Assembly: GCA_017535865.1 (NCBI GenBank)
Contig: JAFXTM010000079.1
Span: 1 to 50,517, forward strand
DNA from: Oscillospiraceae bacterium
Lineage (GTDB): Bacteria; Bacillota; Clostridia; Oscillospirales; Oscillospiraceae
DNA: 50,517 nucleotides
Direction of reading: 5' to 3'
The position numbers were made by a program, and so were the translations under genes. Shown one piece after another: positions 6,591-21,844 of the stretch (the first letter of the stretch is position 1; each line of letters opens with the position of its first letter). The notes beneath the pieces were generated by a model that saw only the letters and a list, made by a program, of their open reading frames with translations, did not search any database and was not told the origin of the DNA.

Positions 6591-6878
6591 ATGGCAGAAA
6601 TCAAGAAACAGTCCAATCAGGAACTTGAGCAGGTCGTCGGCGGCGTCAGCTATGACGGCTGGGCCGTTGTCAGCGGACTTGAGTCCGGCTACCTCGCTCT
6701 CCGCGACAGACCGGGCTACGATTACGATAACGAGATCCGGGGCAGCGAGAGCTATAACGGCGACAAGCTGCAGATCACGGGCAGTTATGTCGTCGGCTTT
6801 GACGGCAAGGTGTATGTCTGGGTCTATAATCCCCGGAGCTGCCGGGCGGGATGGGTCAACGCGAGCTTTCTGCGCTGA
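6591..6878 (+). CDS. Double-glycine leader protein with SH3-like core
   Basis: This 95-residue protein starts at the ATG 9 bases after AGGAGG. Residues 1-18 are a double-glycine leader (NQELEQVVGG). The 77-residue mature part (VSYDGWAVVSGLESGYLALRDRPGYD, ending CRAGWVNASFLR) has the pattern of a bacterial SH3 domain: LALRDRP at the start, several G-D turns and a final GWVNASFL. Bacterial SH3 domains often bind cell wall or peptides. The C39 exporter at 10625 should cut after Gly18 and secrete it. A single cysteine is present, so no disulfide bond forms within one chain. It is monocistronic, with a class T promoter and a terminator. Confidence 0.8.
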   Translation: MAEIKKQSNQELEQVVGGVSYDGWAVVSGLESGYLALRDRPGYDYDNEIRGSESYNGDKLQITGSYVVGFDGKVYVWVYNPRSCRAGWVNASFLR

Positions 6879-6935
6879 GCGTCCGCCCGCACCGGGCGGA
6901 AAGAACACAAAAAACACATCCGACAGCATCGGGAA

Positions 6936-6980
6936 CGGATCCTTCTCCCCGCCGGGGCAGCGGAGAAGGATCCGTTTATT
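6936..6980 (+). terminator. Rho-independent terminator
   Basis: A perfect 13-bp stem (CGGATCCTTCTCC with GGAGAAGGATCCG, loop 13) is followed by TTTATT. It ends the SH3-like gene. Confidence 0.8.
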
Positions 6981-6985
6981 CCGTA

Positions 6986-7013
6986 TTGCGCCTGCGCGTT
7001 CCTGTGCTATAAT
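6986..7013 (+). promoter_or_regulatory. Promoter for the kinase operon
   Basis: A consensus TATAAT is preceded at 16 bases by a weak TTGCGC. No TGTGAC or TGGACA repeats are present, so kinase and first regulator look constitutively expressed. Confidence 0.6.
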
Positions 7014-7050
7014 ACAGGCAGGCTTATATGTGCAGGGAGGAGTGTATGCC

Positions 7051-8301
7051 ATGTTTACAACCCAATATGTGCTGCTCATGCCTCTCGCGCTGCTGCTTGT
7101 CGGCCTCACGCTCGCAGTGCTGACAGATCCCTATATCCGGCCGGAGCACCGGGGGGTCATGCTGTTCATCAATGCCCTGTGCCTTGTCCTGATTGCGCAG
7201 AATCTGCTGGAGTATCGTCTGGCTGTCGGGACGCCGCATATTCTCTGGCGTACCGCCGTATCTGTCTGCGGGTATTCCGTGCGGCCGGTGATCCTGATCC
7301 TGTTCCTTTATATCGTCCAGCCGGAAGGAAAGCGACGGCCGCTGTGGGTACTCGCGGGGATCAATGCGGCCATATATCTCTCGGCGTTTCTTTCTCCTGT
7401 CAGCTTCTGGATCGACGAGTACAATTGTTATCATGCCGGTCCGGCCGCGCCTTCCTGCCTCCTGGTCAGTCTGTTCCTGCTGGCCGACCTTTTCCGGAAC
7501 ACCGTCAAAAATCGCCGCATCATCGGGAAGCGGGGCCTGTGGATCCCGAGCTTTGTCCTGCTGATGATCCTCTTCTCCATCTATTTGGACTACAACATAA
7601 AGGAAGGACAGGTGTCGATCTCCTGTCTGACCATTGCCATTACCGTCGGCAGCGTGTTTTATTACATCTGGCTGCATCAGCAGTTTGTTCAGAAGCATGA
7701 GCAGGATATGATGGCGGCGCAGCGCATCCGGATCATGATGTCGCAGATCCAGCCGCATTTTCTCTACAACACCATCGCCACTTTCAAGGCGCTTGCCGGA
7801 AAGAATCCGGAAAAAGCGGAGGAAGTCGCGGAGAAGTTCAGCGTCTATCTGCGGCAGAATCTGGATTCTCTCAGCATAGACGGATGCATCCCCTTTGAAA
7901 AGGAGCTGGAGCACACCAGAACCTATGCGGAGATCGAAATGGTACGCTTTGAAAACGTCCGGGTCGAGTTTGATCTGCAGGATCTGGATTTTGGTGTTCC
8001 GCCGCTGTCCCTTCAGCCGCTTGTGGAAAACGCCATCCGTCACGGCGTCCGCATCCGCGAGGAAGGGATCGTCCGGGTAAGCACGCGGCGGACGGCGGAC
8101 GGTCACGAGATCGTCGTCGCAGACAACGGAGAGGGCTTCGACATAAGGGTGATCGAAGAAGCGGCCGGAAAGCACATCGGTATCCGGAATGTTCGGGAGC
8201 GGATAGAAACAATGTGCGGCGGCACGCTGCAAATCGACAGCAAATGCGGGGAAGGTACGACGGTCACGATCCGTATTCCGGCGAAGGAGGCGGCGGCATG
8301 A
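7051..8301 (+). CDS. LytS-type sensor histidine kinase
   Basis: This 416-residue membrane kinase starts at the ATG 8 bases after GGGAGGAG. About six hydrophobic segments fill residues 1-205. The His_kinase domain begins SQIQPHFLYNTIATF, with phospho-acceptor His236. The ATPase part follows, with the N box PLVENAIRHG and the glycine loops DNGEGFD and IGIRNV. This is the family of LytS, AgrC-like and YesM kinases, which often sense wall state or peptides. Its stop codon overlaps the ATG of the response regulator (ATGA), so the two form a cognate pair. The signal is unknown, but all outputs nearby concern the cell surface. Confidence 0.9.
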   Translation: MFTTQYVLLMPLALLLVGLTLAVLTDPYIRPEHRGVMLFINALCLVLIAQNLLEYRLAVGTPHILWRTAVSVCGYSVRPVILILFLYIVQPEGKRRPLWVLAGINAAIYLSAFLSPVSFWIDEYNCYHAGPAAPSCLLVSLFLLADLFRNTVKNRRIIGKRGLWIPSFVLLMILFSIYLDYNIKEGQVSISCLTIAITVGSVFYYIWLHQQFVQKHEQDMMAAQRIRIMMSQIQPHFLYNTIATFKALAGKNPEKAEEVAEKFSVYLRQNLDSLSIDGCIPFEKELEHTRTYAEIEMVRFENVRVEFDLQDLDFGVPPLSLQPLVENAIRHGVRIREEGIVRVSTRRTADGHEIVVADNGEGFDIRVIEEAAGKHIGIRNVRERIETMCGGTLQIDSKCGEGTTVTIRIPAKEAAA

Positions 8302-9116
8302 GAGCGATCTGCGTGGACGATGAACGGATCATCATGGAGGACACGGTCTCGCGGTGCCTGGAGCTGCCGCAGATCGACGAGGCCAAGGGCTTCATCCGCG
8401 CGGCGGACGCGCTGCTCTGGCTGGAGGACAACGACGCCGATCTCGCGCTGCTGGACATCGACATGCCGGGAATGAACGGGATCGAGCTGGCCGTGGCGAT
8501 CAAGAAGAAGCGGCCGGATACGGCGATCATCTTTCTGACCGGGTATTCCGAGTATGCCGTGGAGGCTTTCGCTGTGCGCGCGACCGGCTATCTGATGAAG
8601 CCGGTCACGGGGAAAAGGCTGGCAGACGAGGTTGAATACGTCTGTTCCAGAAAACGGAGCTCCCTACCGGCCACGGAGAGAAAGAAGCAGATCGTGATGA
8701 GGACCTTCGGCAATTTTGACTGTATTGTCGACGGCGAAACGATCAGCTTCCGACAGGCCAGGTGCAAGGAGCTGCTCGCCTATCTGGTGGACAGGCGCGG
8801 CGGGAGCGTAAGCAGAGCGGATGCCTTTGCCATTCTGTGGGAGGACCGGCAATATGACCGCCCCATGCAAAAGCAGCTTGACGCGATCATCCGGAGCCTG
8901 CGCGCGACGCTGCAGGAGCACGGCGCCGCCGAGATCCTTGAGATAAAAAGCGGGAATCTGAGGATCCGGCCCGAGCTCATCGAGTGTGATCTGTACCGCT
9001 TTTGCCGCGGGGATGCCGACGCACTCAACTCCTATTGGGGAGAATACATGAACGGCTACGCCTGGGCGGAGTTGACCGAGGGATACATGACGCGGAAAGC
9101 GGAGGGCGTTCGCTAG
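8298..9116 (+). CDS. Response regulator with SARP-like output domain (RR1)
   Basis: This 272-residue protein is of the SAPR type (REC, winged helix, short BTAD-like end). The receiver has Asp7/Asp8, phospho-acceptor Asp53 (LLDIDMPG) and Lys101 (LMKP), so it should be phosphorylated. The output domain starts at about residue 135 with RTFGNFDCIVDGE, and the recognition helix is probably KQLDAIIRSLRATL. It is translationally coupled to the LytS-type kinase. It and RR2 share nearly identical recognition helices. SARP proteins bind direct repeats spaced 11 bp beside the -10 box, exactly the layout found at ten promoters in this window. It is the prime candidate activator of one of the two site classes. 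Confidence 0.9.
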   Translation: MRAICVDDERIIMEDTVSRCLELPQIDEAKGFIRAADALLWLEDNDADLALLDIDMPGMNGIELAVAIKKKRPDTAIIFLTGYSEYAVEAFAVRATGYLMKPVTGKRLADEVEYVCSRKRSSLPATERKKQIVMRTFGNFDCIVDGETISFRQARCKELLAYLVDRRGGSVSRADAFAILWEDRQYDRPMQKQLDAIIRSLRATLQEHGAAEILEIKSGNLRIRPELIECDLYRFCRGDADALNSYWGEYMNGYAWAELTEGYMTRKAEGVR

Positions 9117-9212
9117 CGCACCGGAGACGCCCGCGATCAAATGCATATGAAAGAAAGTGCCTTGTTTCGGAGGAAAAGCTTCGAAGCCGGGCGCTTTTTG
9201 TCGGCTGCTTAC

Positions 9213-9243
9213 TGGACATTTGTTGGACAGTCCATGGTAATGT
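9213..9243 (+). promoter_or_regulatory. Class G operator-promoter (site 1)
   Basis: Direct repeats TGGACA (9213) and TGGACA (9224) are 11 bp apart, and 8 bases after the second comes TAATGT as a -10 with TG one base upstream. It drives RR2 and the export genes. Two more sites with the same layout lie at 18552 and 25027. Confidence 0.75.
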
Positions 9244-9294: not shown

Positions 9295-10179
9295 ATGAGA
9301 GTCCTATGTGTCGACAACGAGAAACACTCCCTCCGGCGTATGCTTTCCCTGTGCAGGGAGATGCCCCTTATCACGGAGGCGGAAGGCTTTACCGACCCTT
9401 GCGAGGCTCTTTCCCGGATGAAGGAGCGGCCGGCGGAGCTTGTGCTGCTGGATGCCGATATATCCGGGACGGACGGGATCGCGCCGGCTCGGAGGATCCG
9501 GGAGCGGTATCCGCATACGGCGATCATTGTTTTAAGCGCAGACCCGCGGCATGCGGTGGAGGCATGGGAACTCCATGCGACCGGGTATCTCCTGAAGCCC
9601 TTCACCCGGGAGCAGCTGCATGACGAGCTGAGCTATGCGCTGACGTGGAGAAGGTCGAACGTGAGCGACAGCGCTGTTCCGCATATCGCGGCGCGCAGCT
9701 TTGGGAGCTTCGATTTGATCGTGGACGGGAAAAAGCTGGACTTTCCCCGCGCCAAATCCAAGGAGCTGCTGGCCTTTCTCATCGACAGGAAAGGGATCTG
9801 GGTCTCGAGAGCCAACGCGTTTCACACCTTGTGGCCCGATACGGAGTACGGACGCCCGCAGCAGAAGCAGCTGGATGTGATCATCCGCAGCCTCCGCGCG
9901 ACGCTGAGGGAGCACGGGATCGACGAACTGCTGGTGCTCGAGCACGGCATGCTTCGGATCGAGCCGCAGGCTCTGGACTGCGACATGTATCGTCTTTTCG
10001 CGGGAGACAAGCAATACGAAGCCGAGTACCAGGGGGAATACATGACCTCCTATTCCTGGGCGAATCTGACCGAAGGCCACATCGATTCCGAGCTTCGGCG
10101 GAGGCGGAGCCGGGCAGGAGAAGACAGCGAAGCGGCCGGGCAGCCCCCGCCGCATGCGCGGGAACACACACATTTTTGA
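9295..10179 (+). CDS. Response regulator with SARP-like output domain (RR2)
   Basis: This 294-residue paralogue of RR1 has receiver residues Asp7-Asn8-Glu9 and Asp53 (LLDADISG), Lys in LLKPF, then a winged-helix output with KQLDVIIRSLRATL, almost the RR1 helix. A hydrophilic tail (RRRRSRAGEDSEAAGQ) follows. One of the two N-terminal acidic residues is Asn, which may weaken phosphorylation. It is the first gene of the export operon and has its own class G operator, so it may regulate itself and the exporter. No kinase is next to it; it probably shares the LytS-type kinase or responds to another signal. Confidence 0.88.
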   Translation: MRVLCVDNEKHSLRRMLSLCREMPLITEAEGFTDPCEALSRMKERPAELVLLDADISGTDGIAPARRIRERYPHTAIIVLSADPRHAVEAWELHATGYLLKPFTREQLHDELSYALTWRRSNVSDSAVPHIAARSFGSFDLIVDGKKLDFPRAKSKELLAFLIDRKGIWVSRANAFHTLWPDTEYGRPQQKQLDVIIRSLRATLREHGIDELLVLEHGMLRIEPQALDCDMYRLFAGDKQYEAEYQGEYMTSYSWANLTEGHIDSELRRRRSRAGEDSEAAGQPPPHAREHTHF

Positions 10180-10197: not shown

Positions 10198-10614
10198 ATG
10201 GAAGAATCGATATTCAGAAAGAAGAGCCTGGAGAGGATCAGCTCTCCCGAGGCACTCAGCGACTATCTGCGCGTGACCAGCCCCAGCGTCTGGCTGATCC
10301 TCGCGGCCGTTATCCTGCTGCTTGCGGGCATGCTGATCTGGAGCTCCACGGCCAGTATCGACAGCTTTGCCGTCGGCACCGCGCAGGTGGAAAAGGGCGA
10401 AATGCGCATTCGCTTTGACGACGAGCAGATCGCCCGCAACGTGCAGAGCGGGATGAGCGTAGTCGTGGGAGAGACCGAGAGCAGGATCGGAAGCGTCGGG
10501 ACGGACGCCGAGGGTCGGCTTTTCGCTTCCGCGCCGACGACGCTGGCGGACGGGACCTACTCCGCCAGGGTCATCTTCCGGCAGACGCAGGTGCTGCGGC
10601 TGCTTTTCAATTGA
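10198..10614 (+). CDS. Minimal HlyD-like NHLM secretion protein
   Basis: This 138-residue protein begins with a cytoplasmic segment SLERISSPEALSDYLRVTSPS, followed by one membrane helix at about 31-50 and an extracytoplasmic beta-rich part with a lipoyl/barrel-sandwich look (SFAVGTAQVEKGEMRI). The opening motif is typical of the NHLM bacteriocin-system secretion protein. It is much shorter than HlyD adaptors and has no coiled-coil hairpin. It lies directly ahead of the two transporters with tight spacing, so it is expected to be an accessory subunit that couples the exporters to the wall side. The reduced size is unusual but the frame is intact. Confidence 0.75.
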   Translation: MEESIFRKKSLERISSPEALSDYLRVTSPSVWLILAAVILLLAGMLIWSSTASIDSFAVGTAQVEKGEMRIRFDDEQIARNVQSGMSVVVGETESRIGSVGTDAEGRLFASAPTTLADGTYSARVIFRQTQVLRLLFN

Positions 10615-10624: not shown

Positions 10625-12805
10625 ATGGCGAAGAAAAAGCTTCGCAGCCCGGTGAGGAAGGGACGCGCCCGTGTTCCGGTCATCATGCAGATGGAAGCCC
10701 TGGAATGCGGCGCGGCTTCGCTTGCCATGGTGATGGCCTATTACGGAAAATGGGTCCCGCTTGAGCAGGTGCGTCTGGACTGCGGTGTGTCCCGGGACGG
10801 CTCGAACGCGAAAAACATGCTCGTGGCAGCGAGGAACTACGGCTTTGAGGCGCAGGGTTTTCGCTGCGAGCCGGACGCGCTCCGGGAGAACATCGCACTG
10901 CCCTGCATCATCCACTGGAACTTCAATCATTTTGTGGTCCTGAACGGGTTCCGGGGCGGCCACGCCTGGATCAACGACCCTGCAAGGGGCGAGATCAAGG
11001 TCCCGCTCGAGGACTTCGACCGCGCTTTTACCGGGATCTGTCTCCAGCTGATCCCCGGGCCGGATTTTCATCCGTCCGGGAAAAAGAAAAGCACGTTTGC
11101 CTTTGCACGGAGCCGCCTGAAGGGCGCGGGGGCAGCCGTCGCCTTTGTGCTGCTGTCCACCGTGATCGGCTATCTCTTCGGCATCATCAACCCCGCTTTT
11201 TCCCGCTTCTTCATGGACCGTCTTCTGACGGGAGAAAACCGGAATCTGCTCTACCCCTTCCTGGGACTGATGATCCTGATGGGTCTGGCCCAGGTGGTCG
11301 TGGCCTGGATACAGGCCGTTTATTCTCTGAAGATAAACGGGAAAATGGCCATCGTCGGCAGCAGCGAGTATATGTGGAGGATCCTGCGTCTGCCGATGGA
11401 GTTCTTCTCCCAGCGCATGGCGGGGGATATCCTGCAGCGCCAGGGCACGAACGCCTCCATCGCGGCCACGCTGGTGAACACTCTCACGCCGCTGCTCCTG
11501 AACACGCTAATGATGCTCGTCTATCTCATCGTGATGCTCCGCTACAGCGTGATCCTGACGGCGATCGGCATAGTGACGATCGTGCTGAACCTCCTGGTCT
11601 CTCAGTATATCTCCGCAAAGCGTGTGAACATCTCCCGCGTTCAGATGCGCGATGCGGGCAAGCTCGCCGCGGCGACGGTCTCCGGGATCCAGATGGTGGA
11701 GACCATCAAGGCCAGCGGCGCGGAAAACGGCTATTTCCAGAAGTGGGCCGGGTATCAGGCCTCCGTCAATGCGCAGAACGTCCGTTTCGCCCGCCTCAAT
11801 CAGATCCTCGGCATCATCCCCGCGGCCCTCTCCGCCATCGCGGACGCGCTGGTGTTGATCCTGGGCGTGCTGCTGGCGATGCGGGGGGAGTTTACTCTCG
11901 GCATGATCCTGCTCTTCCAGGGCTTTCTGAATTCCTTCATGTCGCCGGCCATGACGATCATCTCCGCCGGGCAAAGCCTGCAGGAGATGCGCACAGAGAT
12001 GGAGCGCGTGGAGGACGTCATGCAGTATCCGACGGACCCGAGCTTCTCCGACGCACCACTGGCCGAGGACGCCGATTATTCCAAGCTCTCCGGCGACGTG
12101 GAGCTCAAAGCCGTGTCTTTCGGCTATTCCCGGCTGGGCACGCCTCTGATCCGGGACTTCTCCATGCACGTCCGGCCCGGAAGCCGCGTCGCCTTTGTCG
12201 GGCCCTCCGGCTGCGGCAAATCCACGCTCTCCAAGCTGATCTCCGGGCTTTACCAGCCCTGGAGCGGCGAGATCCTCTTTGACGGAAAGCCGATCTCCGG
12301 GATCGACCGGAGCGTGTTTACCGGTTCTGTGGCCGTTGTCGATCAGGACATCGTGCTGTTTGAGGGCAGCATCGCCGACAACATCAAGATGTGGGACGAG
12401 TCGATCGAGGATTTCGAAATGATCCTCGCCGCGCGGGACGCCCAGATCTATGACGATATCATGGCCCGCGAGGGCGGCTTCAACGGAAAGCTCACCGAGG
12501 GCGGGAAAGATCTCTCCGGCGGCCAGCGGCAGCGTCTGGAGATCGCGCGTGTGCTGGCGCAGGATCCCTCCGTCATCATCATGGACGAGGCGACCTCGGC
12601 GCTGGATGCCAAGACGGAGTATGAGCTGGTAAAGGCCGTGAAGGACCGCGGCATCACCTGTATCGTCATCGCCCACCGCCTCTCTACGATCCGCGACTGC
12701 GACGAGATCATCGTCCTCGATCACGGACAGGTGGTGGAGCGCGGTACCCACGATGAGCTCATGGCCCTCGGCGGCGCCTATACCGAGCTCATCGCCAGCG
12801 ACTGA
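10625..12805 (+). CDS. NHLM-type peptidase/ABC exporter (C39, permease, ATPase)
   Basis: This 726-residue transporter cleaves double-glycine leaders and exports the mature part. Residues 16-140 are a C39 cysteine protease with Gln22 and Cys28 (QMEALECGAASL), His102 (NHFVVLNG) and Asp118 (NDPARG). A six-helix ABC membrane domain follows to about 460. The ATPase has Walker A GPSGCGKST (about 526), signature LSGGQRQRLEIARV (about 629), Walker B IIMDEAT and the switch histidine IAHRLS (about 682). All catalytic residues are present. It follows the HlyD-like gene by 10 bases and precedes the second transporter. The eight GG-leader proteins in this window are its likely substrates. Confidence 0.95.
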   Translation: MAKKKLRSPVRKGRARVPVIMQMEALECGAASLAMVMAYYGKWVPLEQVRLDCGVSRDGSNAKNMLVAARNYGFEAQGFRCEPDALRENIALPCIIHWNFNHFVVLNGFRGGHAWINDPARGEIKVPLEDFDRAFTGICLQLIPGPDFHPSGKKKSTFAFARSRLKGAGAAVAFVLLSTVIGYLFGIINPAFSRFFMDRLLTGENRNLLYPFLGLMILMGLAQVVVAWIQAVYSLKINGKMAIVGSSEYMWRILRLPMEFFSQRMAGDILQRQGTNASIAATLVNTLTPLLLNTLMMLVYLIVMLRYSVILTAIGIVTIVLNLLVSQYISAKRVNISRVQMRDAGKLAAATVSGIQMVETIKASGAENGYFQKWAGYQASVNAQNVRFARLNQILGIIPAALSAIADALVLILGVLLAMRGEFTLGMILLFQGFLNSFMSPAMTIISAGQSLQEMRTEMERVEDVMQYPTDPSFSDAPLAEDADYSKLSGDVELKAVSFGYSRLGTPLIRDFSMHVRPGSRVAFVGPSGCGKSTLSKLISGLYQPWSGEILFDGKPISGIDRSVFTGSVAVVDQDIVLFEGSIADNIKMWDESIEDFEMILAARDAQIYDDIMAREGGFNGKLTEGGKDLSGGQRQRLEIARVLAQDPSVIIMDEATSALDAKTEYELVKAVKDRGITCIVIAHRLSTIRDCDEIIVLDHGQVVERGTHDELMALGGAYTELIASD

Positions 12806-12818: not shown

Positions 12819-15002
12819 ATGGGATGGTTTGATGAACAGATCCGCCAGCGCAAGCTCTCGGATCAGGAGCTCTTTGAGGACTCCCTTTTCCGCATGGCCT
12901 CGGCCGTATTGGGCAGACAGCGTGCCGGGCTTCTGGATGACGAGCGCATCGTCACCAAAGCGGCGATCGACGAGATCCTGAAATACTATCACTGCAAGCC
13001 CGCGGAGATCCCGGACAGCATCCGGGATCTGGACGAGCAGCTGGAATTCTGCCTGCGTCCCTACGGCCTGATGCGGCGCAGCGTCAAGCTGGAGAAGGGC
13101 TGGTTCAGGGACGCCTTCGGTCCGATGCTGACCTTCCGCAAGGAGGACGGCACGGCGGTCGCCCTGCTGCCGAAGCCCTTCCTCGGTTATTACTTCCGCG
13201 ATCCCGTGAGCGGAGAGCGGTTCGATCTCGACAGCAGAACGGCCGCGCAGTTCGTCGAGGACGCGATCTGCTTCTACCGCCCTCTGCCGCTGAAAAAGCT
13301 CGGCATCCCCGACCTGATCGTCTATCTGAAGGACTGTCTGAGCGTGGGCGACTATGTCTTTCTCATTGCCATCACCTTCGCGGCGACGTTGTTTGGCCTG
13401 TTGATGACGAATATCACGCGCGCGCTGACCGGCTTTGTCCTGGAGAGCGGGAACCGATCCCTGCTGCTCGGGACGGCGCTCTTCATGGTCTCCGTCATCC
13501 TCTCCACCCAGATCCTCGGCGCGGCGCGGGAGCTGATGATGAACCGCATCGAGGGCAAGACCTCTCTCGCGGTGGAAGCCGCCATGATGATGCGCGTCAT
13601 GAACCTGCCCGCGAATTTCTTCCGGAAATATGCCTCGGGCGAGCTCTCCAGCCGCTACAACGCGGTCAATCAGCTCTGTGAGCTGCTGCTGGGGAACGTT
13701 TTTTCCTCCGGCCTTGGCGCGCTGATGTCTCTGCTTTACATCACGCAGATCTTCCACTACGCGCCCGCTCTGGTGGCGCCCGCCCTGCTGATCCTCCTGG
13801 CCAGCCTCGTGATCAGCGTGCTCTCCAGCCTGACGCAGATGAGGATCAGTCGGCAGATCATGGAGAAGGGCGCGAAAGAAAACGGACTGAGCTATGCCCT
13901 GATCACGGGCGTGCAGAAAATCAAGCTCGCCGGGGCGGAGAAGCGCGCCTTTGCCAAATGGGGGCGCGCCTATGCCGAGGTCTCGCAGCACAGCTACAAT
14001 CCGCCCGTCCTGATTCGCGCAAACACGGCCATTACCAGCGCGGTCTCCCTCATCGGCACGATCGTGCTGTATTATCTGGCGGTGACGACTGCGGTCACGC
14101 CCTCGGAATACATCGCTTTCAACACGGCCTTCGGCGCAGTGTCGGCCTCCTTCGCCTCTCTCACCGGCGTGGCTCTGTCTGTGGCCCGCATCAAGCCCAT
14201 TCTGGAGATGGCGGAGCCCATCTTGAAAACCGAGCCGGAGTCGGCCGAAAACAAGAGCATGGTCACAAAGCTCAGCGGGAATATCGAGCTGTCCAACGTG
14301 TATTTCCGCTACACCCCGAACATGCCCTACGTCGTCAACGGGATGAGCCTGAAGATCCGCTCCGGAGAGTATATCGCCATCGTCGGCCCCACCGGCTGCG
14401 GGAAAAGCACGCTGGTGCGGCTTCTGCTCGGCTTCGAGACCCCCGAGAGAGGGGCCGTCTACTACGACGGGAAGGATCTCGCCGGGCTCGATCTGCGCTC
14501 CCTGCGCCGCCGGATCGGCACAGTCACCCAGGACGGGAGCCTTTTCCAGGGCGACATCTATTCCAACATCGTGATCTCCGCCCCGCAGCTTTCTCTCGAT
14601 GAGGCATGGGCGGCGGCGGAGCTGGCCGGCATCGCCGACGATATCCGCGCCATGCCCATGGGGATGCAGACCCTGATCTCCGAGGGACAGGGCGGCATCT
14701 CCGGCGGGCAGAAGCAGCGGCTGATGATCGCGCGCGCCGTAGCGCCCAGACCGAAGATCCTGATCTTTGACGAGGCCACCTCCGCTCTGGACAACAAAAC
14801 GCAGAAGCAGGTGTCCGAGGCGCTGGATCAGCTCAAGTGCACGCGCATCGTGATCGCGCACCGTCTCTCGACGATCAAGAACTGCGACCGGATCCTGGTG
14901 CTGGACAAGGGGCAGATCCTCGAGGACGGCAGCTATGACGAGCTGATCGCCCGAAACGGGCTCTTCGCGGAGTTGGTCGCCAGGCAGCGGCTGGATGTGT
15001 GA
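12819..15002 (+). CDS. NHLM-type ABC transporter, second subunit (permease/ATPase)
   Basis: This 727-residue ABC half-transporter starts at the ATG in GACGATGGGATGG. It has the N-terminal MGWFDEQIRQRKLSDQELFED that marks the second transporter of NHLM export systems, an extra cytoplasmic domain of about 170 residues with no peptidase residues, six membrane helices and an ATPase with Walker A GPTGCGKST (about 522), signature ISGGQKQRLMIARA and IAHRLSTI. It most likely pairs with the C39 transporter as a heterodimer or works at a second step; which one is not settled by sequence. The last codons overlap the first repeat of class T site 2, so the next operon starts at once. Confidence 0.93.
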   Translation: MGWFDEQIRQRKLSDQELFEDSLFRMASAVLGRQRAGLLDDERIVTKAAIDEILKYYHCKPAEIPDSIRDLDEQLEFCLRPYGLMRRSVKLEKGWFRDAFGPMLTFRKEDGTAVALLPKPFLGYYFRDPVSGERFDLDSRTAAQFVEDAICFYRPLPLKKLGIPDLIVYLKDCLSVGDYVFLIAITFAATLFGLLMTNITRALTGFVLESGNRSLLLGTALFMVSVILSTQILGAARELMMNRIEGKTSLAVEAAMMMRVMNLPANFFRKYASGELSSRYNAVNQLCELLLGNVFSSGLGALMSLLYITQIFHYAPALVAPALLILLASLVISVLSSLTQMRISRQIMEKGAKENGLSYALITGVQKIKLAGAEKRAFAKWGRAYAEVSQHSYNPPVLIRANTAITSAVSLIGTIVLYYLAVTTAVTPSEYIAFNTAFGAVSASFASLTGVALSVARIKPILEMAEPILKTEPESAENKSMVTKLSGNIELSNVYFRYTPNMPYVVNGMSLKIRSGEYIAIVGPTGCGKSTLVRLLLGFETPERGAVYYDGKDLAGLDLRSLRRRIGTVTQDGSLFQGDIYSNIVISAPQLSLDEAWAAAELAGIADDIRAMPMGMQTLISEGQGGISGGQKQRLMIARAVAPRPKILIFDEATSALDNKTQKQVSEALDQLKCTRIVIAHRLSTIKNCDRILVLDKGQILEDGSYDELIARNGLFAELVARQRLDV

Positions 15003-15064: not shown

Positions 15065-15517
15065 ATGAATACGAACGAAAACAAAACCCTGCGTGCGGAG
15101 GACCTCTCCGACGAGAATCTGGCCGGTGTTGCCGGCGGTTACAGCGGCGAGGCCGTCGCTTCCGGCAGCTTCGCTTCCCAGACGGGCACGGGCCTGAACC
15201 TGCTGGTGAACTGGTCCGCCGTATCGGACGCTTTCGGCGGGAAGACCCTGAACGTGACCGTCTCGGCCACCTCCTACAGCCTGTATTCCGGCGCGCTGGC
15301 CAACTCCGTGGAGCTGCGGGTGAACGGGATGGTGTATACCGCGACCCCGAACGCCATCAACTACAGCGGCAGCGCGCTGGCCTCCAACGTGCTGGCGGGC
15401 TTCTCCATCCCCAACGCAACGGGGCCGGCAAGCATCACGGCGTCCTGGCGCTTCAACGGAAGCTACAGCGGCGTCGCGCTGAACACGATCACCGCTTCGG
15501 GCGTGGCCTCCTTCTGA
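15065..15517 (+). CDS. Double-glycine leader protein, beta-rich 125-residue core
   Basis: This 150-residue protein has a leader of 25 residues (AEDLSDENLAGVAGG). The mature part is rich in Ser, Ala, Gly, Asn and Thr with alternating hydrophobic residues (LNVTVSATSYSLYSGALANS, VELRVNGMVYTATPNA) and no Cys. It reads like an Ig-like or jelly-roll beta sandwich. It is far larger than a normal GG-leader bacteriocin and has no recognised family. As the first gene after the exporter operon, under a class T promoter, it should be a main substrate. It could form a surface layer or fibre, which is only inference. Confidence 0.75.
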   Translation: MNTNENKTLRAEDLSDENLAGVAGGYSGEAVASGSFASQTGTGLNLLVNWSAVSDAFGGKTLNVTVSATSYSLYSGALANSVELRVNGMVYTATPNAINYSGSALASNVLAGFSIPNATGPASITASWRFNGSYSGVALNTITASGVASF

Positions 15518-15521: not shown

Positions 15522-16031
15522 ATGGCACATCCGCTGATCGACAGGGCCTTTTACGAGGCCATTCTCCGCTTTGATGAGAGCGAGGAAGCGCAGGAAACCT
15601 ACTACCGGATCATGGATACCGCCGTGGAGCGAAACGGAAAGACGTATACGGTACGCGGGCAGATCCTGCGCGCCTACGCCATGCTGTTTTGCGACGATAT
15701 CGGCGCGGTGGCAGGGCAGCTCGCCTCCCCCGAGGATGTGGAGGCGACCGCCGACCGCCTGTACGTGGGGGAGATGGGCTTCGACCCGAAGCACTGGTAC
15801 CGGATGCAGCATCACTTCCCCGTGATCGACGAGGACAACTATGACCGTTTCGCCGCGCTGGTGATCGCGGATCTCAGCGCCGGGCCCCTGCACGAGACCG
15901 CTGCGGACGGGACGGGGATGCTTCTTGTCGGGGAGATGAATCCCCTGACGATGAGCGAGGAGGAGAGACGGCGGCAGCATCTGCGAACAGTGTCTGCCGG
16001 GGACCTGACGGGCGGAGGAGAAAAGCCATGA
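15522..16031 (+). CDS. Unknown 169-residue protein coupled to RR3
   Basis: I do not recognise this protein. It is soluble, acidic and probably helical (AFYEAILRFDESEEAQETYY, then a segment with DDIGAVAGQLASPEDVEATA). It has no signal peptide, metal motif or membrane segment. Residues 60-110 have a helical look (RLYVGEMGFDPKHWYRMQHHF). It starts 4 bases after the beta-rich GG protein without its own clear ribosome binding site, and its stop overlaps the ATG of RR3, so it is translated with both. It might be a chaperone or modification partner for the GG protein or a modulator of RR3; neither is shown by sequence. Confidence 0.8.
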   Translation: MAHPLIDRAFYEAILRFDESEEAQETYYRIMDTAVERNGKTYTVRGQILRAYAMLFCDDIGAVAGQLASPEDVEATADRLYVGEMGFDPKHWYRMQHHFPVIDEDNYDRFAALVIADLSAGPLHETAADGTGMLLVGEMNPLTMSEEERRRQHLRTVSAGDLTGGGEKP

Positions 16032-16837
16032 CGATCCTTGCCGTGCTGGAAAACGAACGGGAGATCCCGCCGCTTACGCAGATGCTGGTCCGACTCGCGC
16101 CGGACGCGGAACTGCTCTGCTTCGGCAACGGTCTGCCCGCACTGGCGGCGGCCAGAAAGAAAGAGATCGATATCGCCCTGCTTGATGTCCGTCTGCCGGA
16201 GCTGAACGGGCTGGATCTCGGGCAGTATCTGCAGGAGCTGTATCCCTTCGTCAATCTGATCTATTTCTCGGAAGGGCCGGAGAGCGCGTATGACGCGCTG
16301 CTGCAACATGCCAGCGGCTATCTGCTCAAGCCGGCGGAGGAGAAAAGCATACAGCGGGAGCTGAACGAGCTCCGCCATCCGGCCGTGCAGAAAAACCAGA
16401 AGCGGCTCTTTGTCCAGACCTTCGGGAACTTCGAGCTCTTTGTCGACGGGAAGCCCGTCGCTTTCAAGTACACGCGGACGAAGGAGATCGTCGCCCTGCT
16501 CGTCAACAACCGCGGCGCACAGACCACCAACGGCGAGATCATCGCCACGCTCTGGGAGGACGACGGGGACCCGGAGAAAAAGGCCTCCTACCTCTCCAAT
16601 CTGCGGCAGGACCTGCAGAACACCTTCGCGAAGCTGAAGCTGAACGGGGTCATCCTCAAGCAGCGGGGCAGCCTCGCAATCGCGGCGGACCGGATCGAAT
16701 GCGATCTCTATGACTGGCTGGAGAAGAGACAGGACTCCCGCTATCATTATCTCGGCGACTACATGAATCAATACAGTTGGCCGGAGACGATGCATGCGGA
16801 GCTGGATGAGATCAGCTGGTCCTTCGACGAAACATAA
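16028..16837 (+). CDS. Response regulator with SARP-like output domain (RR3)
   Basis: This 269-residue regulator has the same order as RR1 and RR2, but the receiver is altered. The N-terminal acidic pair is replaced by LEN (Glu8-Asn9), while Asp53 (LLDVRLPE) and Lys in LLKPA remain. The output domain (TFGNFELFVDGKPVAFKYTR) has a different recognition helix, ASYLSNLRQDLQNTF, so it should bind a different site from RR1/RR2. No kinase adjoins it. It may act without phosphorylation. It shares an operon with the beta-rich GG protein, the unknown 169-residue protein, a LysM peptide and a YdcF protein. Confidence 0.85.
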   Translation: MTILAVLENEREIPPLTQMLVRLAPDAELLCFGNGLPALAAARKKEIDIALLDVRLPELNGLDLGQYLQELYPFVNLIYFSEGPESAYDALLQHASGYLLKPAEEKSIQRELNELRHPAVQKNQKRLFVQTFGNFELFVDGKPVAFKYTRTKEIVALLVNNRGAQTTNGEIIATLWEDDGDPEKKASYLSNLRQDLQNTFAKLKLNGVILKQRGSLAIAADRIECDLYDWLEKRQDSRYHYLGDYMNQYSWPETMHAELDEISWSFDET

Positions 16838-16850: not shown

Positions 16851-17072
16851 ATGTCAGACCAAATCACGGCGCTGGACGAGCGCGAGCTCGAGCAGGCCGC
16901 CGGCGGCCGGTTTCTGGGCCCCACCTTCGTCTATGTTCTCCAGGAGGGGGACAGCCTCTCCCTGCTGGCACAACGCTTCGGCACGACGGTCCGGGTCCTT
17001 CGGGAGCTCAACGATATATCCGAACCGAATGCGATCCGCCCCAGCACGCGGCTTCTGATCCCGCAGCGTTGA
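16851..17072 (+). CDS. Double-glycine leader LysM peptide (1)
   Basis: This 73-residue protein starts at the ATG 8 bases after AAGGAG. The leader is residues 1-19 (LDERELEQAAGG). The 54-residue mature part is essentially one LysM domain: VYVLQEGDSLSLLAQRFGTT, then the conserved Asn-rich strand and RPSTRLLIP. LysM binds N-acetylglucosamine in peptidoglycan. It is cotranscribed with RR3 upstream and the YdcF membrane protein one base downstream. Export through the C39 transporter is inferred from the leader. Confidence 0.85.
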   Translation: MSDQITALDERELEQAAGGRFLGPTFVYVLQEGDSLSLLAQRFGTTVRVLRELNDISEPNAIRPSTRLLIPQR

Positions 17073-17073: not shown

Positions 17074-18516
17074 ATGAGAAGGATCCTGCTTCGGCTTGTC
17101 GTTGCCCTCGCGGTATGGATCGGGGTCTTCGCGCTCTGTCTGACGCTGAGCGGCGGAGGACTTACCCTGTTTTTCGAAGTGCCCCCCGAGGCCTCGGGTA
17201 TGTCCTTCCGCTTTGAACCGGAGGGAGTCGTGCGCCTCGCGGGGAGCGAGGTCTCGGCAGACGGCAGCGAGCTCGCGGCGCACTTTGAGGCGGATAGCCG
17301 CGGCGTGACGGAGGCTGTGCTCACCTGGGGCGATCTCGAAGAGGACAGCCTTTACGCCCGGGAGATCCGCATGCAGATGCGCTCGCTCCCCTTCGGTATC
17401 CTGACCGACAGCGTCACCTGGAACTTTACGGGCTGGGGCTATCTGACGGCCTGTCTGTCCCTGTTTCTGCTGTCCGCCGCGGCGATCTTCTTTGCCGCGT
17501 CCCGGCGGGAGAGGGAACGGGCCTGCTTTTCATACCGCGCGACGGCGGAACTCGGCCTTGCGATCTTTCTGCTGCTGACCGGCTTCTTTCGGATCGACAT
17601 GATCCTGCCCTTCCTGCGCGGGGAGAACGCCGGGACGGTCTGGTCGCTGCTTGTCGGCGTCATCGTCTCCGCGCAGACCTTCATGCGCTGGACCGCCGTT
17701 GTTCTGGCTGCCTTCTCCCTGCTGGCCGCCGCCAGCAATCTGGTGCTGATCCGGCATGAGGGCTTCCGGCCCTCCAACATGCTGGGGATCGCAGCGGCGC
17801 TGCTGCTCGTCGGCGGCGCGGGTTTCGGCATCTGGATGTCCTATTCGATGCTGACCTTCCCGCTGCGCAACGTCCTCCTCAACGTGTACGCTGGAGTATT
17901 CGTCTATCTGGAGTGTCTGCTCACGGCGACGGTCATCCACGCGGTGAAGGCCGGGCGCCACGAACCGACATACGACCTGGATTATGTGATCGTCCTCGGC
18001 TGCAAGGTCCGGCCGGACGGCACCCTGTACCCGCTGATCCGCGGCCGGGTAGACCGTGCGCTCGCCTTCCGGAAGGCGCAGCTCGCCGCCTCGGGCAGAG
18101 CACCGGTGCTGGTCCCCAGCGGCGGGAAGGGTGCGGACGAACCGGAGGCTGAGGCCGCGGCCATGGCGCGCTATATGCGGGAACAGGGTGTCCCTGCCGG
18201 GGAGATCCTGATCGAGGACCGTTCCCGGACCACGCAGGAGAATCTCCGCTTTTCGCGGGAGCTGATCGAGGCCCGGGGCGGCGCGGCCAGGGCAGCCTTT
18301 TCCACTTCCAGCTATCACGTCTATCGGGGAGGGATCCTCGCCGCAGAGAGCGGCTGGAACATCGATGGGATGGGCAGCCGCACCAAATGGTATTTCTGGC
18401 CGAACGCTTTTCTGCGGGAATTCATCGGTCTGCTCGCGGCACGCCGCTTCCAGCAGATGACGGCGCTCATCCTGATCGCGCTCCTGAGCGCGGGGCTGAC
18501 CGCGCTGGCGATGTGA
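17074..18516 (+). CDS. YdcF/SanA-family (DUF218) membrane protein
   Basis: This 480-residue protein has an N-terminal helix, an extracytoplasmic beta-rich domain (about 30-130), several membrane helices (about 130-300) and a DUF218 domain (about 305-455) with VIVLGCKVRPDGTLYPLIRGR, then VPSGGKGADEPEAEA, TTQENLRFS and the STSSYHVYRG motif. Relatives such as ElyC and SanA take part in envelope maintenance. It starts one base after the LysM stop codon, so the two are coupled. The wall-related family fits the theme of the locus. A second DUF218 protein, a lipoprotein, is at 39047. Confidence 0.88.
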   Translation: MRRILLRLVVALAVWIGVFALCLTLSGGGLTLFFEVPPEASGMSFRFEPEGVVRLAGSEVSADGSELAAHFEADSRGVTEAVLTWGDLEEDSLYAREIRMQMRSLPFGILTDSVTWNFTGWGYLTACLSLFLLSAAAIFFAASRRERERACFSYRATAELGLAIFLLLTGFFRIDMILPFLRGENAGTVWSLLVGVIVSAQTFMRWTAVVLAAFSLLAAASNLVLIRHEGFRPSNMLGIAAALLLVGGAGFGIWMSYSMLTFPLRNVLLNVYAGVFVYLECLLTATVIHAVKAGRHEPTYDLDYVIVLGCKVRPDGTLYPLIRGRVDRALAFRKAQLAASGRAPVLVPSGGKGADEPEAEAAAMARYMREQGVPAGEILIEDRSRTTQENLRFSRELIEARGGAARAAFSTSSYHVYRGGILAAESGWNIDGMGSRTKWYFWPNAFLREFIGLLAARRFQQMTALILIALLSAGLTALAM

Positions 18517-18784: not shown

Positions 18785-19048
18785 ATGGCAGACGAAGTGA
18801 AAGTCAACGACAGCGAACTCGAGGAAGTGTCCGGCGGCGCCGGCTCCTGGCAGAAGTATGCGAAGGGCACCTATGAGAACTACGGCAACTATGTCGTGTA
18901 CCATGTCGTCAGCGGCGACGTGCTGAGCGGCATCGCCATTCGGTTCGGTGTGACGGTCGCTCAGATCCAGCAGTGGAACAACATCAAGAACGCCAACGTC
19001 ATCAGCGTCGGTCAGAAACTCACCATCTATCCCACCATCATCCGCTGA
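18785..19048 (+). CDS. Double-glycine leader LysM peptide (2)
   Basis: This 87-residue protein has a leader of 18 residues ([11 protein letters not shown]). The mature part starts [18 protein letters not shown] and continues with a LysM domain ([20 protein letters not shown], then [15 protein letters not shown] and VGQKLTIYP). The Tyr-rich start is shared with the paralogue at 21581 (AGGWQQQAKGSY). It has the most elaborate control in the locus, three stacked operator-promoters, and is followed by a terminator, so it is probably expressed at high level. Confidence 0.87.
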
Positions 19049-19067: not shown

Positions 19068-19097
19068 AGCCTCAGCCGCATGCCGGCTGAGGCTTTT
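19068..19097 (+). terminator. Rho-independent terminator
   Basis: A 10-bp stem AGCCTCAGCC/GGCTGAGGCT is followed by TTTT. It separates the LysM gene from the proline-rich protein gene, whose ribosome binding site follows at once. Partial read-through could therefore set the ratio of the two products. Confidence 0.75.
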
Positions 19098-19115
19098 GCA
19101 AAGGAGAGAATTACG

Positions 19116-21098
19116 ATGAAGAAAAAGGTTTTCAGCTTTCTGCTCATTCTTGCGATGCTGCTCTCTGCCGCAGTTTGCGGCGTGACCGCGCAGGCGGACG
19201 AGCCCGCTGCCGTTTTGGCCGACAGTTACGATGTCGACGCGCAGCTCAGCATGATCTTCTTTCAGCTTGAAAAGCTGATGCAGACGGACGGCGAGAACAC
19301 CTGGTACTATACCGTCACGGATCTCGACCACGACGGGAACCTGGAATTCGTCGCCGCATCCCAGCACCCGCAGGACCGCTCCACCAATCTGAAGCTGTGG
19401 GAAGTCAGCGCGGACCGGACCGCGCTCACGGAGTGCAGCCTTAACAAGGACGCGGACGAGTCCTTCCCTGACATGATGACGGACTGCGCCGACACTTACC
19501 ACGATACGCAGACCGACACCTGGTTCTATCTGTGCTATGACAATATCGTCATCTCGAACAGCGAGGTATATACGATCAAGAGCGCCGTCAGCCTGAAGGA
19601 TGGCGTCATCGGCTACGACGCCTTCGCCGTGCAGCATACGCTTGTCGAAAACAATATGTTTGCCGTCAGCTACACAGACCTCAACGGCATGACGATCTCG
19701 CAGGAGCAGTATAACGCGGCCGGCGTGAACGCTTTCGCCGGCACGGAGAGAAGCAGCACCAGCTTTGAGTGGCTCACCGGGACGGACGTGAAGAGCCTCG
19801 CCCGCCTGATCGACAGCTATTCCGTGTTCGCGGGCGTGAAAGCTCCGACGGAGGTCTTCCCGGTCCCGAAGCCTGCCGCCCTGCAGGCCATGGAGCCCAG
19901 CGCCACGCCGGCGCCCGTGCCCACCGCCGCACCGTCCGGCAGCACGAGCCCCAGCTATCTTATGATCACCAAGAACCCGACCAACGAGAGCCGGAAGACC
20001 GGCGATACCGCGTTGTTCGTGGCTTGTGCCAACGCCTATGATTCCCTGACCTGGACGCTGGTGGCGCCCAACGGCGGCGAGTTCTCCGTCCAGCAGTTCC
20101 GCAGCGTCTTCCCCAAGGCGGGCGTGTCCGGCGAATACAGCACCACGCTTTCCATCGGCAACATTGAGCGGGACATGAACAAATGGGGCGCTTACTGCAC
20201 CTTCTATTACAAGGGACAGTCTGCCCGCACCAGCACGGCCTACATCTCCGTGAAGCAGGAGAAACCAACCCCGACGGCCCCCATCGGTGAAACGGGCGAC
20301 TACGTCGGCACCGTTATCGCCACCTCTTTCAGCACGGTCACAGTCGATTGCCCGGGTGTGGATCTCTTTGAGATCCCGCTGAGCATCTGCACGATCACCG
20401 ATACGCTCGACATCGGAGCGGACGCCACGGTCTACTGGGTCAAGGTCGCAGGGTCCCGAGGCGTCACGGTCACCTCCTGCACCATCCGGGGCACCAAGCC
20501 CGCGCCGCAGCCTGTCTACGGCTCCATGAGCGGCACGGCGTATCACGACACCGCTTTCACCGTGTACGTCGTTCTCCAGAACGGCAGCGGCCTGCACCTC
20601 AACGGCAATCTCGTCAACATCATCGGCGGAAACGATATCGACGGAGCCAGCTGCATCGTCTACTACACGGACTATCCGAGCGAAGCTACGATCTACAAGG
20701 TAGATATCTACGGCAAGGACCCGACGCCCGCGCCGCAGCCCGAGCCGGAGCCCACGCCGCAGCCCGAGCCGGAGCCCACGCCGCAGCCCGAGCCGGAGCC
20801 CGCGCCGCAGCCTGAACCGGAGCCTGCGCCGCAGCCCGAACCGGAGCCTGCGCCGGAGCCGAGCTATGGCGTCATTACCGGCAGGGCCTTCCGCAGCATT
20901 TCCGACAGCAACAAGCTGGAGCTCTTCCTGGACAACGGAGACTCGGTGATTGTCGACAGCTATTCCCATGACGGCTATACATGCACGCTGAATGCCGAGG
21001 TCGGAGCCGCCGGCGGCGGCAACCCGTGTGAAGTCTTCTATGTCGACTATCCGAGCGCGGCAAACATCTATAAAGTCGTCGTCTCGGCGGCCGATTAA
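19116..21098 (+). CDS. Large secreted protein with proline-rich spacer
   Basis: This 660-residue protein starts at the ATG after AAGGAGAG. It has a Sec signal peptide ([20 protein letters not shown], cut near AQA-DE). Residues about 35-240 form a domain with [19 protein letters not shown], a pattern seen in clostridial surface proteins. A beta-rich middle ([20 protein letters not shown]) resembles an Ig-like domain. Two short related beta modules ([19 protein letters not shown] and [20 protein letters not shown]) flank a PQPEPEP-type spacer. No enzyme motif is seen. It has no promoter of its own and depends on read-through from the LysM gene. It is probably a wall-spanning or surface protein. 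Confidence 0.82.
20733..20852 (+). repeat. 24-bp tandem repeat coding for PQPEPEP(T/A)
   Basis: Five consecutive 24-bp units, the first two identical, encode the proline-rich spacer of the secreted protein. Such repeats change copy number readily and set the length of wall-spanning stalks. Confidence 0.85.
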
Positions 21099-21115
21099 AA
21101 CCGGGATCCGCCTCA

Positions 21116-21149
21116 TGTGACAGTTCTGTGACAAATACTGTGATATTCT
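21116..21149 (+). promoter_or_regulatory. Class T operator-promoter (site 5)
   Basis: TGTGACA (21116) and TGTGACA (21127) are identical and 11 bp apart, then TGA-TATTCT after 10 bases. This is the cleanest example of the class. The -10 ends 39 bases before the LysM peptide start. Confidence 0.85.
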
Positions 21150-21188
21150 GTACCTGCAAACAAAGAATACAGAACGGAGGTTATCAAC

Positions 21189-21395
21189 ATGGAAAAAAAC
21201 AAAATCGCAATGAATGACGAACTGATGGATCAGGTCACCGGGGGTTCCATTCTTCCCTACCGCGTGCAGCCGGGCGACACGCTCGGGGCGATCGCCAAAA
21301 AGTACCATGTCACGCTGGAACAGCTGATGGCGTGGAACAACATCAAGGATCCCAATTACCTGGTCGTCGGCCAGCAGCTGAAGATCAAGTTCTGA
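21189..21395 (+). CDS. Double-glycine leader LysM peptide (3)
   Basis: This 68-residue protein, the smallest of the LysM group, has a leader of 19 residues (NDELMDQVTGG). The 49-residue mature part is a bare LysM domain: YRVQPGDTLGAIAKKYHVTL, then EQLMAWNNIKDPNYLVVGQQL and KIKF. It has its own class T promoter and two strong terminators behind it, so it is a single-gene unit. The leader and the exporter context make secretion to the wall the likely fate. Confidence 0.87.
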   Translation: MEKNKIAMNDELMDQVTGGSILPYRVQPGDTLGAIAKKYHVTLEQLMAWNNIKDPNYLVVGQQLKIKF

Positions 21396-21411
21396 TTCGT
21401 TCGACGAGAAC

Positions 21412-21463
21412 GGGCGTGATGCTTCGGGGGCGCAGCTCTCCGGGCCTCACGCCCTGTTTTTTT
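21412..21463 (+). terminator. Rho-independent terminator (first of two)
   Basis: GGGCGTGA pairs with TCACGCCC across a 27-base loop that can fold further, followed by TGTTTTTTT. Confidence 0.7.
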
Positions 21464-21502
21464 GCCGGGCTTCCTCCAAAGGGAGGGGCCCGGCGTTTTT
21501 TT
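21464..21502 (+). terminator. Rho-independent terminator (second of two)
   Basis: GCCGGGC/GCCCGGC with an inner TTCCTCC/GGGAGGG pairing and an AAA loop is followed by GTTTTTTT. With the first terminator it isolates the next class T promoter. Confidence 0.8.
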
Positions 21503-21509
21503 CCGCCTG

Positions 21510-21543
21510 TGTGACAGTTCTGTGCCAGAAGCTGTGTTACCAT
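21510..21543 (+). promoter_or_regulatory. Class T operator-promoter (site 6)
   Basis: TGTGACA (21510) and TGTGCCA (21521) are 11 bp apart, then TGT-TACCAT after 10 bases. The -10 ends 37 bases before the LysM peptide start. Confidence 0.8.
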
Positions 21544-21580
21544 GGCCGCGAAGACAGAAAACAGAAAGGAGTGAATACGC

Positions 21581-21844
21581 ATGGCAAAGATCACCAAGCT
21601 CGACGAGCGAGAACTGGAGAACGCGGCCGGCGGCGCGGGCGGCTGGCAGCAGCAGGCGAAGGGCAGCTACAGAAGCTGCGGAGGCTTCATCGTCTATACG
21701 GTCGCCAACGGCGATTCGATCGGCGGGATCGCCGCACGCTTCAGCGTGACGGTACCGCAGATTCAGCAGTGGAACGGCCTCGGGCCCCAGGAAGGGGTCC
21801 GCCCCGGCCAGCAGCTCACGATCTACCCCGTCTCCCTCCGCTGA
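21581..21844 (+). CDS. Double-glycine leader LysM peptide (4)
   Basis: This 87-residue paralogue of the peptide at 18785 has a leader LDERELENAAGG (residues 7-18) that is nearly the same as that of the peptide at 16851. The mature part starts AGGWQQQAKGSYRSCGGF and has a LysM domain (VYTVANGDSIGGIAARFSVT, then PQIQQWNGLGPQEGVRPGQQ and LTIYP). It shares a transcript with the secreted M16 protease downstream, about 107 bases away. One cysteine is present in the linker. Confidence 0.87.
   Translation: MAKITKLDERELENAAGGAGGWQQQAKGSYRSCGGFIVYTVANGDSIGGIAARFSVTVPQIQQWNGLGPQEGVRPGQQLTIYPVSLR

Follow-up and report, generated by a model that had tools for sequence, protein, structure and literature searches.

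The window analysed here is a whole contig of 50,517 nucleotides (JAFXTM010000079.1) of an Oscillospiraceae assembly (GCA_017535865.1; 2.48 Mb in 118 contigs, 80.5% complete). It carries an exporter of the NHLM (PCAT) type with a C39 peptidase, together with eight small genes encoding proteins with double-glycine (GG) leaders. This arrangement, proposed in an earlier note on the same DNA, is confirmed, the exporter proteins ABC1 and ABC2 scoring above the cut-offs of TIGR03796 and TIGR03797, respectively. The host genus is one of gut bacteria mostly known from ruminants, and the strongly matching relatives are mostly Oscillospiraceae, 'Ruminococcaceae' or Clostridiales assemblies, with the rumen, abomasum, omasum, reticulum or ileum of ruminants as stated sources. 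The cargo genes (named hereafter by their first coordinate) and the exporter genes are the following, with lengths in amino acids (aa) and pLDDT (predicted local distance difference test) as the model score.

6591..6878, + strand: GG-leader SH3b-like microprotein, 95 aa (SH3b-like fold; Gln at leader residue -12)
10198..10614, + strand: short HlyD-like adaptor, 138 aa (TIGR03794 25.3 bits, cut-off 156.2)
10625..12805, + strand: ABC1, C39 peptidase/permease/ATPase (TIGR03796 940.3 bits, cut-off 853.3; Q22, C28, H102 and D118 present)
12819..15002, + strand: ABC2, permease/ATPase without peptidase (TIGR03797 715.9 bits, cut-off 709.4; matches in 60/60 regions)
15065..15517, + strand: GG-leader beta-sandwich protein, type F (leader; model pLDDT 79; no clear family)
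16851..17072, + strand: GG-leader LysM microprotein, type C (PF01476 3e-11)
18785..19048, + strand: GG-leader LysM microprotein, type A (PF01476 1.4e-15)
21189..21395, + strand: GG-leader LysM microprotein, type B (PF01476 9.4e-20)
21581..21844, + strand: GG-leader LysM microprotein, type A (PF01476 4.2e-13)
30276..30524, + strand: GG-leader protein whose mature part contains 3 Cys, possibly a zinc ribbon (leader; Pfam only below cut-off)
36779..36955, + strand: GG-leader protein with two CxxC pairs (leader; no Pfam match)

As first described, four of the mature parts are single LysM domains (PF01476, 43.5-70.7 bits for a gathering cut-off of 20.9), and that of 6591 has an SH3b-like fold. For the latter, the fold test gave SH3b, no Pfam SH3 model matches the window protein and, within its family, SH3_3 and GW each match weakly in 5/16 members. 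The Pfam model Bacteriocin_IIc also matches 9/16 members of this family weakly (best 4e-4), and profile matches at E 0.16-0.28, one group to ribosomal protein eL28 and the other to proteins resembling VirB11, were taken as chance. Neither 30276 nor 36779 has a relative in the exporter loci searched, and it is uncertain whether they belong to the export system. A further class of GG cargo, with mature parts that contain CxxC or resemble zinc ribbons, is found in L275 (2352-6090), L104, L107, L206 (62-3282) and the window (30276 and 36779), forming long runs in L275 and L206. The same genome has a fifth GG-LysM gene, on contig C44, its remaining LysM matches falling in frames of 434 and 545 aa. 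No NHLP- or Nif11-type precursor model of NCBIfam matched at E 0.1 among the six cargo proteins scanned, i.e. those other than 30276 and 36779.

Leader sequences and the C39 exporter

All eight window leaders fit the motif [LM]xx[AV]xGG. The narrower form of the earlier note, [DE]-x-[DE]-L-x-x-[AV]-x-G-G, holds for three of them, the other five fitting only the looser one. A regular expression for the leader retrieved nine frames from the window, corresponding to 7/8 cargo genes (two from upstream starts, 21189 being missed) and two other frames, vs 0-2 frames in each of 20 triplet shuffles of the window. A stricter scan with a ribosome-site rule found 5/8 cargo genes and one other frame in the window, and, outside it, three frames in ten 20-kb stretches of the genome; on inspection, no frame of these three combines D/E at -10 with L/I/M/V at -12. 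Ribosome-site-like stretches precede the small cargo genes.

In the LahT peptidase, a hydrophobic groove holds leader residues -4, -7 and -12 (PMC6363468). The leader selection rule applied here used -4 and -7, so that -10 and -12 were unselected. Position -12 is L, I, M or V in 84/84 clustered leaders (the start Met in three of them), and position -10 is D or E in 84/84 (clusters 0-3); these do not amount to 84 independent events because the leaders are related. The CW_7 frames of L051 and L097, which have internal starts, were dropped from these residue counts and from those of charge and hydrophobicity. The leaders are devoid of a hydrophobic core, with a top 10-residue mean of 1.03 vs 2.6-3.4 at the start of four secreted-type window proteins. 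By homology, it is very probable that the C39 domain reads the acidic leader through -4, -7 and mostly -12 and cuts after GG, and that the domain then exits via ABC1/ABC2 and the adaptor. Two LysM precursors carry two GG sites about 35 residues apart, like tandem leaders before one LysM (L066, 15898-16278, and L087, 12325-12702, both on the - strand).

ABC1 is the sole TIGR03796 match above cut-off in its genome, and the catalytic columns of C39 are kept across the 97 ABC1 sequences (Q in 96, C in 95, H in 97 and D in 97). Membership of the NHLM/PCAT family is given by both ABC proteins, whereas the adaptor fails TIGR03794, aligning only to positions 1-44 of 421. Its 138-aa form is no accident of this genome since a homologue occurs in 60/60 genus exporter regions at E 1e-4 (59/60 at 1e-5). 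With the NHLM exporter of NHLP/Nif11 precursors (Haft et al. 2010, PMC2887384), the system shares ABC1 and ABC2 above cut-offs, a GG cleavage site and several precursors per exporter. It differs by a leader that is short and acidic instead of Nif11- or nitrile-hydratase-like, by a cargo made of folded wall-binding domains and by an HlyD partner that is a stub.

Cargo and exporter across the genus

The genus set comprised 102 genomes, the records seen being uncultured assemblies. TIGR03796 matches 65 of them, 63 above cut-off, G025 and G040 being counted as exporter-positive though below it. One region around ABC1 was fetched from each of 60 genomes, i.e. 61 genus regions with the window, and, for comparison, 20 exporter regions were taken from other members of the order, along with 17 regions around genus paralogues.

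A LysM model built from the four window LysM proteins, leader included, matches 79/102 genomes at E 1e-4. At 1e-15, it matches 54/65 exporter-positive vs 2/37 exporter-negative genomes (Fisher 2e-15, ancestry ignored). Among the matches listed at <=1e-15, nearly all start in the leader part, in frames of up to 205 aa; an E threshold alone is no proof of a leader because plain LysM domains in long frames reached 7e-19 with another model.

Clustering of GG-leader frames, window included, yielded a LysM cluster (46 proteins in 28 regions), a CW_7 cluster (23 in 21), an RDSWF-like cluster (10 in 10) and the 15065 type (7 in 7). The mature LysM parts are net positive in 40/46, and most LysM cargo consists of a single domain in which a second binding site is not apparent. 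CW_7 (PF08230) was recognised in two cluster members at 3e-31 and 2e-26 (107.2 and 92.2 bits, cut-off 25), and the CW_7 cargo of relatives is made of tandem repeats. A second pass with profiles returned 63 LysM frames in 33/61 regions, 58 of which pass the leader rule, and 40 CW_7 frames in 34 regions, 37 of which pass. Of the five failing LysM frames, two proved on reading to have GG leaders (L059, in which -7 is Ala, and L101) and a third is truncated at the end of its contig; the last two are ordinary proteins, of which one starts with a hydrophobic stretch and the other is 605 aa long. The three failing CW_7 frames are one GG leader, one contig-end cut and one frame seemingly out of phase. 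The SH3b family carries the same kind of GG leader in the genus; a second 6591-type copy (G054) was matched, outside the set of fetched sequences. A further GG cargo family with an [RH][DH]SWF-type motif is present in L057, L060, L066, L079, L087, L089, L091, L092, L096 and L101, the two members scanned giving no Pfam match.

CW_7 occurs in 55/102 genomes of the genus, in listed frames of 59-234 aa except for three genomes (316-412 aa), and in 13/295 genomes from other parts of the order, where the frames measure 242-594 aa except for one 28-aa fragment. When counted in short frames, which leaves out G004, G099 and G030 (CW_7 in frames >300 aa), it is found in 50/65 exporter-positive vs 2/37 exporter-negative genomes. 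No CW_7 was found in the genome of the window, which is about 80% complete. The earlier note had called for a search of GG-leader LysM proteins near C39 ABC genes across Clostridia. The architecture recurs in the genus, but a wide spread was not borne out in the family and phylum sets. Indeed, among 400 family genomes, the type A model matches at <1e-20 only in this genus and two other genera, g80 and g84, and, among the matches listed for 398 phylum genomes, the leader-start ones in short frames all come from the genome of the window itself.

The cargo genes are under purifying selection, with ratios of nonsynonymous to synonymous substitution rates (dN/dS) of 0.13-0.42 in ten pairs of complete short frames. 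This bears on the explanation that the small genes are not exported at all, being frames with GG-like ends by chance or relics of wall enzymes. The product has never been observed, and pieces of wall enzymes would look alike. However, the low dN/dS, the conservation of unselected leader positions, the co-occurrence of cargo with the exporter and the upstream ribosome-site-like stretches all speak against this explanation, which is extremely unlikely.

Exporter phylogeny and gene neighbourhood

The ABC1 tree includes 97 sequences, i.e. the window, 60 genus regions, 19 order regions and 17 genus paralogues (97/98 regions, the order region L206 having no usable ABC1 frame), and was computed by a quick method supported only by the Shimodaira-Hasegawa-like approximate likelihood ratio test (SH-aLRT). 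All 41 exporters with GG-LysM or GG-CW_7 nearby fall on one side of a single branch (starred in the tree), among 59 rows, vs 0/38 beyond it. The remaining rows among the 59 are 14 genus regions, three paralogues and one order region, all without such cargo nearby, and several cargo-less genus regions come from genomes with LysM/CW_7 cargo elsewhere. Because of these mixed rows and of the ten changes that the wall-cargo label requires on the tree, the grouping amounts to clustering, short of a clean single origin. The long branches flagged by the tree tool fall outside the 59 rows.

The LysM, CW_7 and type F profiles gave no match in any of the 37 regions taken from the rest of the order (20) or around paralogues (17); by reading, the GG frames of the order regions are Nif11-like, short or Cys-rich peptides, or there are none. 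The view of the earlier note that no enzyme for ribosomally synthesized and post-translationally modified peptides (RiPPs) is present holds for LanC-like domains (0 in the genome of the window, about 80% complete, and 8/102 genus genomes), the search being confined to these, with radical SAM and YcaO enzymes not searched. In G045, G049, G068, G071 and G074 (regions L262-L266), a second ABC1 of lower score (813-828 bits) stands some 6 kb away from the LanC-like match. Beside these five paralogues stands a long-leader, lanthipeptide-like precursor with a short Thr/Ser-rich core containing Cys in 4/5. Since the LanC-like gene and the precursor adjoin another paralogue, these five genomes keep a RiPP-type exporter apart from the wall-cargo one. 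The presence of LysM, CW_7 and SH3b domains on the same leader kind, the co-occurrence and the exporter grouping lend good support to the original proposal that the cargo is made of wall-binding domains instead of bacteriocins, and extend it beyond the window, with the exception of 30276, 36779 and 15065, which are not known wall binders.

The genes neighbouring the exporter and its cargo are the following.

7051..8301, + strand: histidine kinase (PF06580 2e-19, scanned from 7045; start by reading)
8298..9116, + strand: response regulator with a weak Trans_reg_C part (Pfam Response_reg 5.8e-21)
9295..10179, + strand: response regulator with a Trans_reg_C part (Pfam 1.5e-17 and 4e-7)
15522..16031, + strand: conserved gene, mostly adjoining a 16028-type regulator (20/60 regions; no Pfam match)
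16028..16837, + strand: response regulator (Pfam 1.8e-10; 21/60 regions)
17074..18516, + strand: DUF218 (SanA/ElyC family) membrane protein (PF02698 1.7e-25; 31/60 regions)
19080..21098, + strand: large secreted protein with Pro-rich linkers (hydrophobic start; homologues in 23/60 regions)

A gene order recurs among the regions, with many partial versions and swaps. Its first part runs from optional STAS/SpoIIE/RsbW genes through the kinase, the regulators, the short adaptor, ABC1, ABC2, type F and 15522 to the 16028-type regulator, after which come LysM C, DUF218, LysM A, the large Pro-rich secreted protein, LysM B and CW_7. Per 60 regions, matches amount to 31 for DUF218, 31 for STAS, 14 for SpoIIE, 15 for RsbW and 6 for the kinase. 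SpoIIE/STAS/RsbW partner-switching genes lie near the exporter in the window (32465-37623) and in L064, L090, L097, L098, L099 and L105, and STAS- or RsbW-like frames were also read in the order regions L203 and L205. The DUF218 family has a role in envelope and peptidoglycan synthesis in E. coli (PMC12176290). A group of VanY, YkuD, second DUF218 and D-Ala-D-Ala dipeptidase genes, located 5-18 kb past the last LysM gene of the window, provides candidate associates of the exporter system.

The type F domain is also found inside the large Pro-rich secreted proteins of L050, L090, L095, L098, L100 and L103 (E 6e-17 to 3e-14), of which two were read, both with a lipoprotein-like start; the Pro-rich protein of the window (19080) gave no match to the type F profile. 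As for 15522, it sits with a 16028-type regulator but without 15065- or 16851-type matches in L085 and L096. This arrangement speaks against a cargo-specific immunity role, and 15522, considered as an immunity protein, was not adopted as one.

Elsewhere in the window, a frame at 5460-6053 (- strand) begins like a holin (Pfam 3.3e-8) and ends as a phage integrase (1.8e-13), resembling a prophage relic, and another at 30541-32271 fuses DUF3089 with a family 3 solute-binding protein domain. By reading only, adjacent desulfoferrodoxin-, glutamate-synthase/rubrerythrin- and Fur/PerR-like frames at 2352-5255 (- strand) resemble an oxidative-stress block.

A possible wall coat and its alternatives

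There is, in our view, an even chance that, in this genus, a branch of the NHLM-type C39 (PCAT) exporters was co-opted to deliver unmodified, single-domain wall-binding microproteins that are exported and retained on the producer's own wall. The cargo of this branch would comprise LysM domains of types A-C, tandem CW_7, SH3b and probably a beta-sandwich. Once exported, the mostly cationic domains would bind peptidoglycan and stay on the wall as a shielding or organising coat, while the two-component regulators and nearby partner-switching proteins may set the timing of cargo production. That the mature domains form such a coat is, taken separately, evenly balanced.

Several observations weigh against this proposal. 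ABC2 lies barely above its TIGR03797 cut-off and the HlyD partner falls short of its own, 20/61 genus regions are without LysM/CW_7 cargo within the fetched stretch, and the ten label changes on the ABC1 tree belong here as well. Seven exporter-positive genomes have neither LysM (1e-15) nor short-frame CW_7 cargo. The contrast between LysM and exporter depends on the threshold since, at 1e-4, the model matches 59/65 vs 20/37 genomes (Fisher 4e-5, ancestry ignored). The 6591 leader, outside the 84 clustered ones, has Gln instead of a hydrophobic residue at -12, and SH3b genes were not found in the 60 genus exporter regions. The RDSWF family, like 30276 and 36779, is without a known wall-binding fold.

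The exported domains could instead be a weapon, attaching to the peptidoglycan of competitors and disturbing their growth or division as a non-enzymatic bacteriocin, or blocking their hydrolases. Indeed, the exporter family is annotated for bacteriocin export, LysM, SH3b and CW_7 serve phage lysins and wall enzymes as targeting domains, and there are many cargo paralogues per genome. Class II bacteriocins have the same double-glycine leader type, whereas the mature parts here are folded wall-binding domains. Wall hydrolases and phage endolysins share the LysM, SH3b and CW_7 families by Pfam or fold, whereas these domains sit there inside longer enzymes and here stand alone behind a GG leader. 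The mature LysM/CW_7 proteins seen include no catalytic or pore-forming part, their low dN/dS is not that of diversifying genes and no cargo-specific immunity gene was recognised, though the function of 15522 is unassigned; such a weapon is unlikely. A coat is preferred to it because purifying selection acts on the cargo, several wall-binding folds share one leader kind, the mature parts are mostly cationic, envelope genes stand around and no cargo-specific immunity was recognised.

The cargo might also consist of matrix or aggregation proteins, cross-linking cells or attaching them to plant fibre or to each other. A precedent is provided by EbfG1-4/PteB of Synechococcus elongatus, in which small GG proteins and a C39 transporter have a surface and biofilm role instead of an antibiotic one, EbfG4 being located on the cell surface (PMC4997328, PMC9981879). 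The EbfG proteins are reported as amyloid or matrix proteins, whereas LysM, CW_7 and SH3b domains are carried here, and the likeness is by description only. The variety of binding folds, the tandem CW_7 and the two-component and partner-switching genes nearby would suit such a function. Most LysM cargo is, on the contrary, single-domain, without an apparent second site for cross-linking, and a matrix role is improbable.

Another alternative is that free domains capture shed muropeptides, hiding them from the host or neighbours, or reporting the state of the wall to the nearby kinases. Among solved structures, Ecp6 comes closest to the LysM profile by sequence, and this secreted LysM effector scavenges chitin (PMC7337405). 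A kinase and regulators also adjoin the exporter. However, the kinase is matched in only a tenth of the regions (6/60) and a receptor partner was not identified, so that capture or signalling appears highly unlikely.

The proposed coat on the producer's own wall has a parallel in fungi, where the single-LysM protein Mg1LysM forms polymers with chitin and shields the wall of the fungus itself (PMC7337405). Mg1LysM and Ecp6 are, as here, free secreted LysM proteins, whereas the present proteins are bacterial, presumably exported through C39, and likely to have peptidoglycan as ligand; the comparison concerns the way of working only. By title and opening lines, most subscription papers and all bioRxiv preprints being outside the scope, no report of GG-leader LysM, CW_7 or SH3b proteins was found. 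The terms 'double-glycine', 'LysM' and 'C39' occur together in PMC3482391, with LysM and C39 in other connections, and a term search for 'LysM' in the main text of a 2026 survey of rumen bacteriocins (PMC13289728) gave nothing. For Pseudomonas savastanoi, secreted LysM proteins have been published (PMC12327690). The exporter is thus of a known family, and the cargo class appears to be new.

C39/PCAT exporters are by default read as machinery for bacteriocins, RiPPs or pheromones, and a mining tool that met these loci would likely label them bacteriocin clusters. In its boldest form, to which we give somewhat less than even chances, the proposal is that a Gram-positive-type bacterium paints its own wall with a mixture of single-domain, lectin-like microproteins (LysM, CW_7 and SH3b). 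The dedicated pathway, derived from a captured bacteriocin/RiPP exporter and controlled by two-component and partner-switching systems, might then be the bacterial counterpart of fungal LysM effectors. If a branch of these exporters does deliver folded wall-binding domains, the cell surface could be built by a route in which a hydrophobic signal peptide is not required, PCATs would be expected to handle cargo the size of a domain (about 50-125 residues) and a set of small wall-binding modules would be on offer. Protection of the own wall by free LysM proteins, as reported for fungi, would also become testable in bacteria, e.g. against lysozyme or phage lysins.

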